Origin: Pseudomonadota bacterium
Lineage (GTDB): Bacteria > Pseudomonadota > Alphaproteobacteria > Sphingomonadales > Sphingomonadaceae
Assembly (NCBI GenBank): GCA_018240895.1
Contig: JAFEEX010000025.1
Coordinates: 1-56,018, forward strand
Reading direction: 5' to 3'
DNA: 56,018 nucleotides
How positions within the stretch are numbered: position 1 is the first letter of the stretch; each line of letters opens with the position of its first letter. The position numbers and the translations under genes were made by a program. The notes below the pieces were generated by a model, which did not search any database, had not been told where the DNA came from, and saw only the letters and a program-made list of their open reading frames with translations. Shown here piece by piece: positions 5,256-42,422 of this stretch.

Positions 5256-5810
5256 GTGGTTTACGATGCTTGTGTGCTTTACCCAGCGCCGCTGCGTGAC
5301 CTGCTGCTTGAGCTGGCTTCCGCGTCGCTGTTCCGGGCAAAGTGGAGCGAACAGATCCATGCCGAGTGGATTGAAAGTGTCTTGCGTGACCGCCCAGACC
5401 TTGCGCGGGACAAATTGAACCGAACCGCGCACTTAATGAACGAGGCAGTCCTCGATTGCCTGGTGGACGGTCACCTGGGGCTTATCGACAGCCTTGCATT
5501 GCCAGATCCCAATGATCGTCATGTCCTTGCCGCAGCAATCCACGCTGGGGCCGACGCAATAGTTACCTTCAACCTAAAGGATTTTCCGGTCGATACTTGC
5601 GACCAATATCAACTTGAGGTGCTGCACCCTGATGATTTTATTCGCTTTCAGTTTGATTTTGACAATTCGGCCGTGATCATAGCTGCGACACGATGTCGTC
5701 AGCGCCTTCAAAATCCGCCGAAAACCGCTCAAGAATATCTCGAGACACTTACTCATCTACGATTGCCCGCGACGGTGGCGGCGCTAATGCCATTTGCTTC
5801 AGTGCTTTAG
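5256..5810 (+). CDS. PIN-domain ribonuclease toxin
   Basis: 184 residues from GTG. The PIN fold is clear: an N-terminal VYDACVLYPAPLRDLLL with the first catalytic Asp, an Asp in LPDPNDRHVLAAAI, and a late Asp in AIVTFNLKDFP. A C-terminal extension (PPKTAQEYLETLTHLRLPATVAAL) is typical of this PIN_3-like group. PIN toxins are Mg-dependent RNases that cleave RNAs when the antitoxin is lost. The GTG has no Shine-Dalgarno and would start almost on the first catalytic strand. An ATT at 5235, with AGGAAGAGGG (5217-5226) 8 nt upstream, would give a more family-like N-terminus (IKHSRYTVVYDAC) and overlap the antitoxin stop. Confidence 0.82.
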   Translation: MVYDACVLYPAPLRDLLLELASASLFRAKWSEQIHAEWIESVLRDRPDLARDKLNRTAHLMNEAVLDCLVDGHLGLIDSLALPDPNDRHVLAAAIHAGADAIVTFNLKDFPVDTCDQYQLEVLHPDDFIRFQFDFDNSAVIIAATRCRQRLQNPPKTAQEYLETLTHLRLPATVAALMPFASVL

Positions 5811-5877
5811 GAATCGTCCTCACTCGCTGCCGTCTTGGTATCGCCCTTTCAGGGGCGGACAACCGAAAGGCCCACCC

Positions 5878-7035
5878 ATGTCCTTCCTTTCCACTCTGGC
5901 CGCAGCCTTCAAGGGCGGCGCGGATCATCGCGTGCCTTTGGCGCGCACCTTTGTTTCGCCCTGGATCTATGCCGACCCCGTTACCCGTGCGCCGTTTGAC
6001 TATGCCAGTGCCGTGCGGCGGGCCTATCTGGATAATCCGGTGGCGCAGCGCAGTGTGCGGCTGGTGGCGGAGGGGATTGGCGGCGCACCGCTGGTCCCGG
6101 TCGATCCGGCGCTGGAACGGCTGGTCGGGGCGACCAGCGCCGGGCAATCGCTGCTGGAAACGTTGGCCAGCCAGTTGCTGCTGCATGGCAATGCCTATGT
6201 CCAGGTGATGAAGGATGCCGCCGGCGCGCCGGTGGAGCTTTATGCCCTGCGGCCCGAGCGGGTCAGCGTGATCGCCGGGGCCGATGGCTGGCCCAGCGCC
6301 TATGCCTACAAGGTGGGTGAGGCGAGCCTGACCATTCCGCTGCTCGATCAGGATGCATCGCCCAATGTGATCCACATCCGCGGCTTCCACCCCGGCGACG
6401 ATCATTATGGCGCGGGGTGCCTGATCGCCGCTGACCGGGCGATCGCCACGCATAATGCCGCGGCGGAGTGGAACCGGACCCTGCTGGAAAACGCCGCGCG
6501 GCCATCGGGCGCGCTGGTTTATGATCCGGGCGATGGCGCGCCGCTTGGTGCCGACCAGTTTGACCGGCTCAAGCAGGAACTGGCCAGCGCCTATTCCGGG
6601 GCGGCCAATGCCGGGCGGCCCATGCTGCTGGAAGGCGGGCTGAAATGGCAGGCGCTCAGCCTGACCCCGGCGGACATGGACTTTGCCGCGTTGAAAGCCG
6701 CCGCAGCGCGCGATGTCGCGCTGGCCTTTGGCGTGCCGCCGATGCTGCTCGGCCTGCCGGGCGATGCGACCTATGCCAATTACCGCGAGGCCAATCGCGC
6801 GCTGTGGCGGCTGACCCTGCTGCCGTTGGCCGGCAAGATCCTGTCGGCGATTGCCGAAGGGCTGGAAACCTGGTTCCCCGCCGCGCGCCTTGCGGTCGAT
6901 CTCGATCGGGTGCCCGCGCTGGCCGACGATCGGGAAAAGCTGTGGAGCCAGGTCGGCGCGGCCAGCTTCCTGTCGGACGCGGAAAAGCGGGCGCTGCTGG
7001 GCCTCGCGCCGCTTGATGAAAGGAACATTTCATGA
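5878..7035 (+). CDS. HK97-family portal protein (GTA gp3-like)
   Basis: 385 residues from the ATG at 5878; the frame opens earlier, but MSFLSTLAAAF is the expected N-terminus. Family features: SPWIYADPVTRAPFDYASAVRRAYLDNPVAQRSVRLVAEGIGG, the LLLHGNAYVQVMKD strand, VIHIRGFHPGDDHYGAG and FGVPPMLLGLPGDATYANYREANRALW. It forms the dodecameric ring at one capsid vertex through which terminase pumps DNA and to which the tail connects. It overlaps the next gene by ATGA. The native terL-portal spacing has been broken by the toxin-antitoxin cassette, which ends 67 nt upstream. Confidence 0.93.
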   Translation: MSFLSTLAAAFKGGADHRVPLARTFVSPWIYADPVTRAPFDYASAVRRAYLDNPVAQRSVRLVAEGIGGAPLVPVDPALERLVGATSAGQSLLETLASQLLLHGNAYVQVMKDAAGAPVELYALRPERVSVIAGADGWPSAYAYKVGEASLTIPLLDQDASPNVIHIRGFHPGDDHYGAGCLIAADRAIATHNAAAEWNRTLLENAARPSGALVYDPGDGAPLGADQFDRLKQELASAYSGAANAGRPMLLEGGLKWQALSLTPADMDFAALKAAAARDVALAFGVPPMLLGLPGDATYANYREANRALWRLTLLPLAGKILSAIAEGLETWFPAARLAVDLDRVPALADDREKLWSQVGAASFLSDAEKRALLGLAPLDERNIS

Positions 7036-39114: not shown

Positions 39115-39777
39115 ATGTCTTACGCAGATCGTGATAGAACCGCGGAAAACGCTGTTGGCGTGGTGATTTCCACTATACTCCTGGTCTTGATTGGCTTGGG
39201 TCTGTGGATCGGGTTGCGGACCGAGGGCTTTCAGAAGATCATCAAGAGGGTGACTACTGTCGATATCAAGAAGGACGAGCCGAAGAAGGAGCCGCCGCCG
39301 CCGCCCAAGCAAAAGGCTGCTGCGCCGCCCATCGTCGCGCCGCCGGTGAAGATCAACGTCAACGTGGCGCCGCCGCCGATCACGACGGTCACGACGCCGC
39401 CGCCGGTTGCGCCGGTGGTTCCGGTCATCGCGCCGCCTGCGCCGGTTGCCGCACCGCCGCCGCCACCGCCCAAGTTTCAGCCCAAGACCCCGCAACCCAA
39501 GGGCAACCCCGGCAACTGGGCGAATTCCAACGACTATCCTTCGGGGCCGCTTCGCCGCGAAGAGCAGGGTGTCACCCGCATTCGCGTTGGTGTGGGGGCG
39601 GACGGCCGGGTCACCTCGTGCGACGTGACAGGATCGAGCGGATCGAGCGAACTCGATTCCACCACCTGCTCGCTGATCACCCGTCGTGGCCGGTTCTCTC
39701 CGGCGACCGATGGTGAAGGCAATCCGGTTTCCGGCACGTGGACAAGTTCGATTCGCTGGCAGATCCCGAAGGATTGA
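39115..39777 (+). CDS. tonB: TonB-like energy transducer
   Basis: 220 residues. One N-terminal transmembrane helix (VGVVISTILLVLIGLGLWIGL, about 14-34), then an EPKKEPPPPPKQK and Pro/Val-rich periplasmic spacer (52-125) and a C-terminal TonB domain (PSGPLRREEQGVTRIRVGVGADGRVTSCDVTGSSGSSELDSTTCSLITRRGRFSPA). It transmits proton-motive force to outer membrane receptors. The SxxxH helix motif of classical TonB is not evident. First gene of a tonB-exbB-exbD-exbD unit. Confidence 0.88.
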   Translation: MSYADRDRTAENAVGVVISTILLVLIGLGLWIGLRTEGFQKIIKRVTTVDIKKDEPKKEPPPPPKQKAAAPPIVAPPVKINVNVAPPPITTVTTPPPVAPVVPVIAPPAPVAAPPPPPPKFQPKTPQPKGNPGNWANSNDYPSGPLRREEQGVTRIRVGVGADGRVTSCDVTGSSGSSELDSTTCSLITRRGRFSPATDGEGNPVSGTWTSSIRWQIPKD

Positions 39778-39857
39778 TTTCGTTTGTGCGGCCTTGCCGG
39801 GCTGCAGATCTGGGTACTGGTTTTTTAAGACTTAAATTCTCTTGAGAGGACTATCGC

Positions 39858-40625
39858 ATGGTTTTTGAACTTCTTACCGCTGCAGCCAACGCGGCCCCGC
39901 AGAACAAGTTCGGCTTCTCCGAAATGATGTTCCCGGATGGAAAGCCCAACTGGATCGCGCTGATCGTGGCCGCCATTCTGGCGATCATGTCGTTCGGTTC
40001 GTTCTTCATCCTGTTCACCAAGTGGGCTGAGCAGAACAAGATTCTGGGCCAGTACCGCGATTTGCGCGGCAGCTTCTGGCGCGCCGGGTCTCTCAAGGAA
40101 GGCGCTGCCAAGCTCGAAAAGAACAGCGCCTGGCGCCAGGTCGTCGATGATGGCCTGTCTGCGGAAGAACAGCACAGCAAGATGGTCAACGAAACCGACG
40201 CACATGAATGGCTGCTTGGCTCGCTGGCGCGTTCGGAAGCTTCGATCAATGCCCGTCTTGCCGGCGGACTGCCGTTCCTCGCTACTGTTGGCGCGACATC
40301 GCCGTTCATCGGTCTGTTCGGTACCGTTGTCGGCATCTACCGCGCGCTGATCGCGATCGGCATTGCCGGTTCGGCTTCGATCGACAAGGTGGCCGGTCCG
40401 GTCGGTGAAGCGCTGATCATGACCGCAATCGGTCTGCTCGTCGCGGTGCCTGCGGTGCTTGCCTACAACTACCTGCAGGCTCGCAATAAGCGTATCGCCG
40501 AACTGCTTTCGGGCTTCTCGACTGACGTGCTGGCGAACATCAACTCGAAGGGCGCGGTTCGTCCGGCCGTGTCGGCTGCCCCGGCCGCCGCCAAACCGGC
40601 TGCTGCCCCCGCCGCCAAGAACTAA
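39858..40625 (+). CDS. exbB: MotA/TolQ/ExbB proton channel protein
   Basis: 255 residues. Three membrane helices: WIALIVAAILAIMSFGSFFILF (about 31-52), AGGLPFLATVGATSPFIGLFGTVVGIYRAL (about 133-165) and VGEALIMTAIGLLVAVPAVLAYNYL (about 178-203). The second and third carry the conserved Thr/Gly proton-channel motifs. The C-terminal tail is Ala/Pro-rich (AAPAAAKPAAAPAAKN). It forms the pentameric stator of the TonB motor. A 17-bp hairpin separates it from exbD. Confidence 0.92.
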   Translation: MVFELLTAAANAAPQNKFGFSEMMFPDGKPNWIALIVAAILAIMSFGSFFILFTKWAEQNKILGQYRDLRGSFWRAGSLKEGAAKLEKNSAWRQVVDDGLSAEEQHSKMVNETDAHEWLLGSLARSEASINARLAGGLPFLATVGATSPFIGLFGTVVGIYRALIAIGIAGSASIDKVAGPVGEALIMTAIGLLVAVPAVLAYNYLQARNKRIAELLSGFSTDVLANINSKGAVRPAVSAAPAAAKPAAAPAAKN

Positions 40626-40633
40626 GTCGCCAT

Positions 40634-40672
40634 GCCGCAGGCGCTGCGGGATAAGCCCGCAGCGCCTGCGGC
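40634..40672 (+). repeat. 17-bp perfect hairpin between exbB and exbD
   Basis: GCCGCAGGCGCTGCGGG (40634-40650), loop ATAAG, then its exact complement (40656-40672), beginning 9 nt after the exbB stop. No T-run follows, so it is more likely an RNA-processing or stability element than a full terminator. A second imperfect stem (GGTCCGG with CCGGACC) follows. It may set exbB above exbD, in keeping with the 5:2 motor stoichiometry. Confidence 0.6.
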
Positions 40673-40746
40673 CAGGTCCGGCCGGGCGCAGGCCCCAGGG
40701 CAACCGCCCGGACCAACCGTGAATTTCCAAGGATAGGATTTAACTC

Positions 40747-41283
40747 ATGGCGATTTCGACGGGCGGATCCGGCGGCGACGAAAGGCCGATGTCGGACATC
40801 AACACCACGCCCCTCGTGGACGTGATGCTGGTGCTCCTGATCATCTTCCTGATCGCGGTTCCGGTCGCGATCCAGACGATCCAGAAGCTGCATGTCCCGA
40901 TTATGGTTTCGCAGGAATCGAAGAACAAGGTCGAAAACCTGCTGTTGACTGTCAGCACCACTGATTCGGCTGGCCGGTCTGCGGGCGATCCCGGGTTTGA
41001 AGGTGCCTCGCTGGGCGGGGAATGCCGCATCTATTTCAACAACATCACACCGGTCGATTCGAACGAACTGCGTGACATGGCCTTCAAGCGGCTTGACTCC
41101 ATCGTCAAGCGCGCAGGCGGCCCCGAGGCGCTGCGTGACAACCCCGAAATGGTGCCCCAGGTGCACATTCGCGGCGACGTGAATGCCCCGTGGCGCTGCA
41201 TTGCGGGCGCGGTCTACAACGTGCAGATTTCGGGCTACCCGACTGTCGGCTTCATTTCGACCCCGGTTGATCCGAACGGTTGA
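40747..41283 (+). CDS. exbD: ExbD/TolR family protein, first copy
   Basis: 178 residues. Short cytoplasmic N-terminus, one transmembrane helix with the proton-carrying Asp in [29 protein letters not shown] (about 17-45), then a periplasmic domain longer than usual, with a cysteine pair (GECRIYF and WRCIAGAV). The ExbD dimer sits in the ExbB pore. Downstream of exbB by 121 nt, including a strong hairpin. Confidence 0.92.
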
Positions 41284-41321
41284 TCCGCGGTTCTGGCCAG
41301 TATTTTTAGGAGTATCGCACC

Positions 41322-41777
41322 ATGGCAATGTCAGGCGGCAAGGATGATGGCTCGCCGATGATGGAAATGAACACGACGCCGTTGATCGACGTCATGCTCG
41401 TTCTGCTCATCATGTTCATCATCACCATCCCGGTGGCAACGCACGCGGTCAATATCGACCTGCCCAACCCGTCGGCTCCGCCGCCGGACACGATTATCAA
41501 GCGTGACAAGAACAAACTGGTGATTCTGCCCGACGGTACGATCCTGTGGAACAACACCCCGATGAATCAGAGCCAGTTGATGGGCGCGCTGCAAGCGACG
41601 CTGGCGATCAAGCCTGAACCGGAACTGCAGTTCCAGCCGGATCCGCAGGCACCTTATGATACCGCTGCCAAGGTGCTGAAGATTATCAAGGGCTCGGGCG
41701 TGACTGCATTCGGTTTTGTCGGAAACGAACAATATTCTGAATTCGGCAAGGCACCGAACGCACCGAAAGCGCAGTAA
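41322..41777 (+). CDS. exbD: ExbD/TolR family protein, second copy
   Basis: 151 residues. [31 protein letters not shown] carries the membrane helix and essential Asp. The periplasmic domain (VNIDLPNPSAPPPDTI, LWNNTPMNQSQLMGALQATLAIKPEPELQFQPDPQAPYDTAAKVLKIIKGSGVTAFGFVGNEQY) is a compact ExbD fold. AGGAG precedes the start. The operon ends here at a strong terminator. Confidence 0.92.
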   Translation: MAMSGGKDDGSPMMEMNTTPLIDVMLVLLIMFIITIPVATHAVNIDLPNPSAPPPDTIIKRDKNKLVILPDGTILWNNTPMNQSQLMGALQATLAIKPEPELQFQPDPQAPYDTAAKVLKIIKGSGVTAFGFVGNEQYSEFGKAPNAPKAQ

Positions 41778-41800: not shown

Positions 41801-41828
41801 GGGGGCGGAGCGATCCGCCCCCTTTTTT
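41801..41828 (+). terminator. Rho-independent terminator of the tonB-exbB-exbD-exbD operon
   Basis: GGGGGCGGA (41801-41809), loop GCGA, TCCGCCCCC (41814-41822), then TTTTTT. A perfect 9-bp stem and U-run, so the third exbD downstream needs its own promoter. Confidence 0.92.
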
Positions 41829-41919
41829 GTTCGCTGCATGGGCGTCCCGCGAAGGCTGATCCCGCAGACGCCGGACTGGAAGTGGGAATGACGCAAATTC
41901 CGGGAACGCTTGATAGTAA

Positions 41920-41938
41920 AATGTTATACTATAACATT
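41920..41938. promoter_or_regulatory. Zur-like palindrome in the promoter region of the third exbD
   Basis: AATGTTATACTATAACATT, two perfect 9-bp arms around one central base. It equals the core of the proteobacterial zinc uptake regulator (Zur) box, usually written GAAATGTTATANTATAACATTTC. It overlaps likely promoter elements (TTGATA at 41910-41915 with TAACAT at 41932-41937, 16-nt spacer; TATACT inside the box), fitting repression when zinc is plentiful. The start codon is 32 nt downstream. Confidence 0.72.
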
Positions 41939-41969
41939 CGAACGTGTAGACATCGGGAAAGGAAACGTC

Positions 41970-42422
41970 ATGGCTGCAACCCTGTCCGTTCCGGACGCAC
42001 CCCTGGCAGAGATGAACACCACGCCGCTCATCGACGTTCTGCTCGTGCTGCTGATCATGTTCATCATGTCTGTCCCGGTTGCCGCCAACATTACCCCGGT
42101 TGACCTGCCAAGCCCCGATACCGCCGCAGCGCGCCCGATTCAGGCGCAGAATACCTTGTCGATCACGCCGGTCGGAACGATCCTGTGGAACGGAAACGCT
42201 GTATCGGAAGCAACCCTTGCGGTGACCCTGGCTTCGCTGGTTCACCTCAGGCCGGAACCGCTGGTGCGATTTCAGCCGAATGCCCAGGCACCCTATGGCA
42301 CTTCGGCGCGGGTACTGCACATAGTCAAGCAATCGGGCATCGCCAGCTTCGCCTTCTCGGAAAACGAGCGGTACGGACAGTTCACGAAGGCAGCGCCAGT
42401 CCGCCAAACCCTCGCCCGCTAA
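41970..42422 (+). CDS. exbD: ExbD/TolR family protein, third copy, separately controlled
   Basis: 150 residues from the ATG at 41970, with GGGAAAGGAAA upstream. MNTTPLIDVLLVLLIMFIMSVPVAANI holds the helix and essential Asp. The periplasmic part closely parallels the second copy (ITPVDLPSPD, LWNGNAVSEATLAVTLASLVHLRPEPLVRFQPNAQAPYGTSARVLHIVKQSGIASFAFSENERYGQFTKA), so it looks like a local duplicate. It lies after the operon terminator behind a Zur-like box, which suggests a zinc-starvation ExbD. Its stop overlaps the helicase stop tail to tail. Confidence 0.88.
   Translation: MAATLSVPDAPLAEMNTTPLIDVLLVLLIMFIMSVPVAANITPVDLPSPDTAAARPIQAQNTLSITPVGTILWNGNAVSEATLAVTLASLVHLRPEPLVRFQPNAQAPYGTSARVLHIVKQSGIASFAFSENERYGQFTKAAPVRQTLAR

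Follow-up and report, generated by a model that had tools for sequence, protein, structure and literature searches.

A third exbD behind the main Ton operon

We report here that in the window, i.e. the whole stretch of 56,018 nucleotides analysed in this study, a lone exbD stands behind the terminated main Ton operon and is preceded by a Zur-type box, an observation which is probably real. Zur control of this gene is a prediction well supported by cross-genome comparison. On the whole, we consider it likely that this third exbD belongs to the Zur regulon, and that its ExbD, together with an orphan TonB, would be supplied to a shared ExbB for ZnuD-type receptors.

The window is contig 22, with a G+C content of 64%, of an assembly of 3.17 Mb that comprises 104 contigs and is 89% complete. 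The main operon runs from 39115 to 41777 in the order tonB-exbB-exbD1-exbD2, and is followed by the terminator, the operator and the third exbD (Table 1). The first-pass annotation had placed a terminator at the end of this operon, which is confirmed by the stem and the six T behind it, and it had the palindrome overlapping a promoter. The latter also holds, since the palindrome overlaps the only promoter-like site between 41700 and 42480, itself a weak match to the consensus. At this locus no exbB is found 3' of the third exbD, where the next gene lies on the opposite strand, and the box is not followed by a complete second Ton system with an exbB of its own. A TTG start at 41910, whose frame would run through the box, was ruled out, because the ortholog in L200, a Novosphingobium MAG, begins at the equivalent ATG. 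Within the main operon, exbD1 (40747-41283, 178 aa) is longer than its neighbours and has a periplasmic insertion with two cysteines.

Table 1. Features of the Ton locus in the window and of the boxed orphan tonB elsewhere in the assembly
Feature	Position	Strand	Evidence
tonB, main operon	39115..39777	+	Pfam TonB_C, 2.2e-12
exbB, main operon	39858..40625	+	Pfam MotA_ExbB, 1.6e-29
exbD1, main operon, 178 aa	40747..41283	+	Pfam ExbD, 2.6e-12
exbD2, main operon	41322..41777	+	Pfam ExbD, 7.2e-23
Intrinsic terminator 3' of main operon	41801..41828	+	9-bp stem 41801-41822, 8 G-C pairs, T6 to 41828
Promoter-like site TTGATA-16-TAACAT, inferred	41910..41937	+	Consensus scan, 9/12 positions; shuffles give 0.3 on average
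Putative Zur-type operator AATGTTATACTATAACATT	41920..41938	.	Perfect 9-1-9 inverted repeat; matrix score 33.3
Third exbD, 150 aa, single gene behind operator	41970..42422	+	Pfam ExbD, 8.6e-20; ATG at 41970
Orphan tonB with box, contig 47	Box L017:5441-5463; tonB 5535-6209		Matrix score 28.6, ranked second among the Zur-type boxes found in this genome

Sequence and rarity of the operator

The core of the operator, TGTTATANNATAACA, has a single exact match in the whole assembly; the base composition of the window, with both strands counted, predicts 0.004 exact cores and 0.22 sites of no more than one mismatch for 3.17 Mb. In the window, the palindrome is the sole match with fewer than three mismatches. 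What the first-pass annotation had said of a palindrome at this place is accurate, as the 9-1-9 dyad is perfect and its core unique. It had also called the match to the Zur box exact, which is right for 18 of the 19 bases of AATGTTATACTATAACATT when compared with the 19-mer AATGTTATAWTATAACATT, as given in the portion of PMC3516566 available, and wrong for the centre, where the window has C and the consensus has A or T.

For the scoring of further sites, we used a matrix of 23 columns made from 29 boxes that in relatives lie at genes for ZnuD-like receptors, MerC and TonB, every exbD site being left out. The operator of the window scores 33.3, a value that is partly circular because the search for the training sites used the window's own core, and that lies within the leave-one-out range of those sites (21.4-34.1); the scores of the other exbD sites are free of this circularity. 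Among sites of the window that do not overlap the operator, the highest score is 3.1. The sole site with one mismatch in the assembly, AATGTTATACTGTAACA, is located on contig 47, about 75 bases 5' of an orphan tonB that no exb genes adjoin. As the exact core and the one-mismatch site of the genome adjoin exbD and tonB, both of its best sites precede parts of the Ton motor. Two further sites of this genome score 18.5-18.7 (L003 and L005), one close to a repeat protein that looks secreted and the other within AT-rich sequence.

The box before exbD and tonB genes of relatives

The matrix was then applied to upstream regions picked by ExbD homology alone, with p values taken from dinucleotide shuffles. 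Among 39 regions upstream of third exbDs, 34 have a site at p<0.05 and 30 reach a score of at least 10, against 2 of the 39 reversed copies, one of which is the window's own. Ten further third-exbD loci agree with this: all ten are at p<0.05, nine score at least 10, and none of the ten reversed copies does. These ten include L071, L086, L088, L090 and L092, five of the 44 tandem loci that are outside the set of 39 and whose third exbD was located by tblastn. Summed up with the window included, the box is present at p<0.05 before 44 of 49 third exbDs, and 39 of the 49 score at least 10. The palindrome is hence largely kept in relatives that have the third exbD, as it should be if the first-pass reading holds, except for five of the 49 without a box, three of which belong to one genus. 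As to the genomes used, 53 of 249 have at least two matches; G082, G180 and G237 were left out, and the stretch used of G230 contains no third exbD.

In 80 named loci, where the exbDs were located by tblastn, a score of at least 10 is reached by none of 146 operon exbDs, 10 of 17 third exbDs, all 7 orphan exbDs and none of 4 further copies, which leaves 7 of the 17 third exbDs below 10. An earlier motif-based count on the same loci, which missed some third exbDs, gave 0/143, 7/11 and 7/7 for operon, third and orphan copies, respectively. For tonB the picture is alike. Among 30 homologues, 14 of 17 orphan tonBs (the genome's own included) score at least 10 and none of the 13 operon tonBs does. 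Several named loci come from genomes that are also in the G set, and the relatives are not independent; the weight lies on how operon genes differ from orphan ones. Culturable environmental relatives with the box include Sphingobium fuliginis DSM 18781 (L239), at an orphan exbD, and Qipengyuania intermedia GH38 (L223), at a third exbD.

The named relatives of the third exbD are sphingomonads. The nearest named ortholog, that of L200 with 60% identity, agrees with the window in the order of its terminator, box (score 21.9) and start codon ATG. In the congeners G172 and G218 (L024 and L027) no third exbD is found within 1.5 kb after exbD2, and their orphan tonBs are also boxed, with scores of 17.5 and 20.3; a search of G111 and G218 for the core with up to one mismatch found nothing. 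In L071, L090 and L313, tblastn finds a further ExbD-like stretch 3' of the third exbD. Judged by these distributions, control by Zur of an ExbD and a TonB that are both orphans appears to be widespread but patchy among sphingomonads.

These counts also bear on the view that the dyad is an AT-rich promoter element, symmetric by chance. The dyad does overlap the sole promoter-like site, and AT-rich promoters are conspicuous in a contig of 64% G+C, which speaks for such a view; yet hardly any exact core is expected in the genome, shuffles and reversed copies of the upstream regions fail to reproduce the box, and the upstream regions of operon exbDs and operon tonBs never reach a score of 10, so that we hold this explanation to be very improbable. 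A chance palindrome was ruled out on the same grounds, namely the count in the genome, the shuffled and reversed sequences and the operon genes taken as controls.

Targets and regulator of the box

A pattern search with at most one mismatch finds the box in 113 of the 249 family genomes. Among 77 box loci, 40 lead by reading to genes for ZnuD-like receptors, MerC, tonB, exbD, CDF or small histidine-rich proteins, and the targets found by pattern include five orphan or third exbDs. The other 37 lead to different or unassigned genes, some of them siderophore-type receptors, and part of these sites may be chance ones in AT-rich genomes. Compared with Pfam, eight of nine target proteins are as read, and the ninth (L145) has no match. 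For two boxed receptors, ZnuD is the best NCBIfam model, far below the cut-off and with incomplete queries, and for one boxed receptor the best match in a PDB sequence search is likewise ZnuD.

Several kinds of target deserve a description. Boxed MerC-type membrane proteins often adjoin ctaA-like genes; those divergent from such genes occur in L170, L175, L179, L147 and L158, and one of them is confirmed by Pfam. They are candidate zinc importers where a search of 17 genomes found ZnuA in none. In L145, L169, L182 and L185, the box precedes the gene of a small protein of about 123 aa that looks secreted and is rich in histidine over part of its length, and the one that was tested matches nothing in Pfam or NCBIfam. 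Boxed CDF-type transporters are found in L141 and L189, and are perhaps Zur-activated efflux.

As for the regulator, all 17 relatives searched, three of them of the same genus, carry a second Fur-family gene in addition to Fur; this gene is divergent and, in the four loci read, lies between msrA-like and dxs-like genes. One such candidate zur of a sphingomonad is at L113:1414-1881. The second Fur-family protein of one relative scores 52 bits with the NCBIfam model for Zur and 20 with that for Fur, both below the cut-off, and its top three PDB matches comprise two zinc uptake regulators as well as the Fur-family regulator 7dh7, which we take to be the Zur of Xanthomonas. In the window's assembly we found one Fur-family gene, which fits Fur. 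Searches of this assembly returned no zur, no ZnuD-like receptor (one partial query, E<=1e-30) and no ZnuA, results for which absence and a gap are indistinguishable because the assembly is 89% complete; ZnuA was also not found in any of the 17 relatives, which leaves no znuA site to serve as the within-genome reference that the first-pass annotation had proposed.

It is therefore worth weighing whether the palindrome is the operator of another regulator, e.g. Fur or an unstudied repressor. The single Fur-family gene of the assembly, with Zur not found there, would fit this, as would those boxes of relatives that precede siderophore-type receptors or unassigned genes. Against it, the box agrees with the published Zur 19-mer at all bases except the centre (PMC3516566, seen in part) and fits the GTTA-N5-TAAC core used for Caulobacter Zur, according to the portion of PMC4176598 available. 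Also against it, boxes of relatives precede genes for ZnuD-like receptors, MerC and CDF proteins, and every relative searched has the second Fur-family gene. We thus regard another regulator as improbable and continue with Zur. The third exbD has a box of the published consensus. In the lineage this box also precedes genes of kinds that are recognised as Zur targets, and it is kept before orthologs of the third exbD. The Zur control that the first-pass annotation proposed is in this way strengthened by comparison among genomes, the same box being placed at the ZnuD-like, MerC and orphan tonB genes of relatives and at third and orphan exbDs, and not at operon exbDs.

The third ExbD protein

The product of the third exbD belongs to the ExbD/TolR family, with 71.5 bits for Pfam PF02472 at a cut-off of 25.4. 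Its membrane aspartate, D22, is invariant in 15 of 15 aligned proteins, and its best PDB sequence match is an ExbD. The NCBIfam equivalog models give 57.7 bits for TolR and 45.8 for ExbD, both far below the cut-off. The first-pass annotation had described the gene as a duplicate exbD. That it is a further exbD is borne out by Pfam; a recent duplication of exbD2 was ruled out, as the two proteins of the window share 49% identity, and the third exbD is an old paralogue. In a tree of ExbDs, the labels of third exbD and exbD2 require 4 changes against 26 in shuffles, so that third exbDs stand mostly apart; the tree is built on few columns and has long branches that meet, and is compatible with a single or a multiple origin of the third exbD.

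The longest end branch among the 78 ExbD rows is that of the window's third ExbD, and this would suit a decaying duplicate retained by chance. The frame is open, though, both the membrane aspartate and the operator are kept, and the comparison with the L200 ortholog gives dN 0.32 and dS 0.94 (NG86), i.e. a dN/dS of about 0.35, all of which makes decay most unlikely.

A cysteine pair, C-x2-C or C-x3-C, follows directly after the DLP of the periplasmic linker in 18 of 39 third ExbDs, e.g. those of L068, L075, L081 and L091. In exbD2 no pair is found at this position of the linker, with 1 of 39 carrying one at a different place. The third ExbD of the window has no cysteine at all. Where it is present, the pair is a possible zinc or disulfide site.

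A proposed model of the Ton motor in zinc shortage

With enough zinc, Zur would sit on 41920-41938 and block the overlapping promoter, and the terminator at 41801-41828 would limit readthrough from the main Ton operon. When zinc is short, Zur would leave and the alternative ExbD would be made. As no exbB accompanies the third exbD, its product would most likely join the ExbB ring of the neighbouring operon, and it is fair to suppose, as the first-pass annotation did, that an ExbD subunit would be added or swapped in zinc shortage. Since the orphan tonB carries the second-best operator, zinc shortage would supply a new ExbD together with a new TonB, and the two on the shared ExbB hub would drive ZnuD-type zinc receptors. 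Binding by Zur, repression, assembly with ExbB and zinc transport are all steps that we infer.

A simpler outcome is that the gene is controlled by Zur, and its product would just be more ExbD for more motors when many receptors are induced, and would have neither a partner nor a substrate of its own. The third ExbD keeps the membrane aspartate and the family match, which speaks for this. However, more motors in this sense fit poorly with a gene that has no exbB behind it, with third exbDs that are distant from exbD2 (49% in the window) and mostly apart from it in the tree, with a linker cysteine pair that nearly half of them have and exbD2 lacks at that place, and with the same box before an orphan tonB. 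We consider extra dosage unlikely, if the strongest among the competing explanations, and prefer a distinct ExbD that would work with the orphan TonB on the shared ExbB.

Ton motors are usually viewed as fixed sets of ExbB, ExbD and TonB. If Zur controls ExbD and TonB without ExbB, one energy hub would be retuned by a swap of two of its three parts when the metal is short. We put forward, tentatively and as something rather doubtful, a stronger version: the orphan ExbD and TonB released by Zur might displace, or mix with, the operon subunits on an unchanged ExbB ring, which would thereby be retuned for zinc receptors, and in the many lineages having the C-x2/3-C pair this pair may directly sense zinc or the redox state, giving a metal-gated motor.

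Comparison with known systems

Control of Ton motor genes by Zur or zinc is already known from A. baumannii, P. aeruginosa PA1924 and Paracoccus, as the available portions of PMC3516566, PMC4542158 and PMC5387054 tell. The first-pass annotation had held Zur control of a single motor subunit to be undescribed, which is too strong in view of PA1924 (PMC4542158) and the A. baumannii tonB1-exbB1-exbD1 (PMC3516566). A lone exbD behind a terminated Ton operon, combined with a separate Zur-boxed orphan tonB and seen across a family, was not found in the open-licence PMC literature.

The order of the main operon is shared with Sphingobium sp. SYK-6, which has a tonB1-exbB1-exbD1-exbD2 operon (PMC8599685) and further tonBs, with tonB3-6 of no clear role, and in which a second Fur paralogue is suspected of zinc or manganese control (PMC8599685, PMC7376174, both in part). 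Unlike the window, SYK-6 is described with three exbD-like genes of which the third is tolR, named exbD3, and Zur has no occurrence in the portion of PMC8599685 available. As exbD3 means tolR in the SYK-6 papers, the third exbD of the window needs another name.

In Caulobacter crescentus, as in the window, an alphaproteobacterial Zur-type operator GTTA-N5-TAAC lies in the promoter, and the regulon includes three TonB-dependent receptors (PMC4176598). No exbD or tonB target is named in the accessible text of that paper, where ExbD and ExbB each appear a single time, within a reference. Paracoccus denitrificans is a further alphaproteobacterium in which TonB and ExbD are linked to zinc limitation, with pden0725 (TonB) 2.1-fold and pden0726 (ExbD) 2.4-fold up in zinc-depleted medium (PMC5387054). 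There, the rise is modest, the two genes are adjacent, and in the accessible text they are not among the promoters listed with a Zur motif.

The extra ExbD that is tied to a predicted Zur site has a parallel in PA1922-PA1925 of P. aeruginosa (PMC4542158, PMC8456098, both in part). In this case PA1924 (exbD) is co-transcribed with the receptor gene PA1922, for which a Zur site is predicted, and is about 44-fold up in zinc depletion (PMC4542158). It lies in an operon that also holds the genes of a TonB receptor and a CobN-like protein, whereas the exbD of the window stands by itself 3' of the main Ton operon, and its genome has in addition a separate orphan tonB with the same box. Finally, TonB motor genes behind a Zur box are shared with A. 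baumannii, whose tonB1-exbB1-exbD1 has such a box and whose tonB is 4- to 5-fold up with a zinc chelator, as reported in the portion of PMC3516566 available. However, those genes make up a full second motor, exbB included, while in the window's genome only exbD and tonB are boxed, at separate loci.
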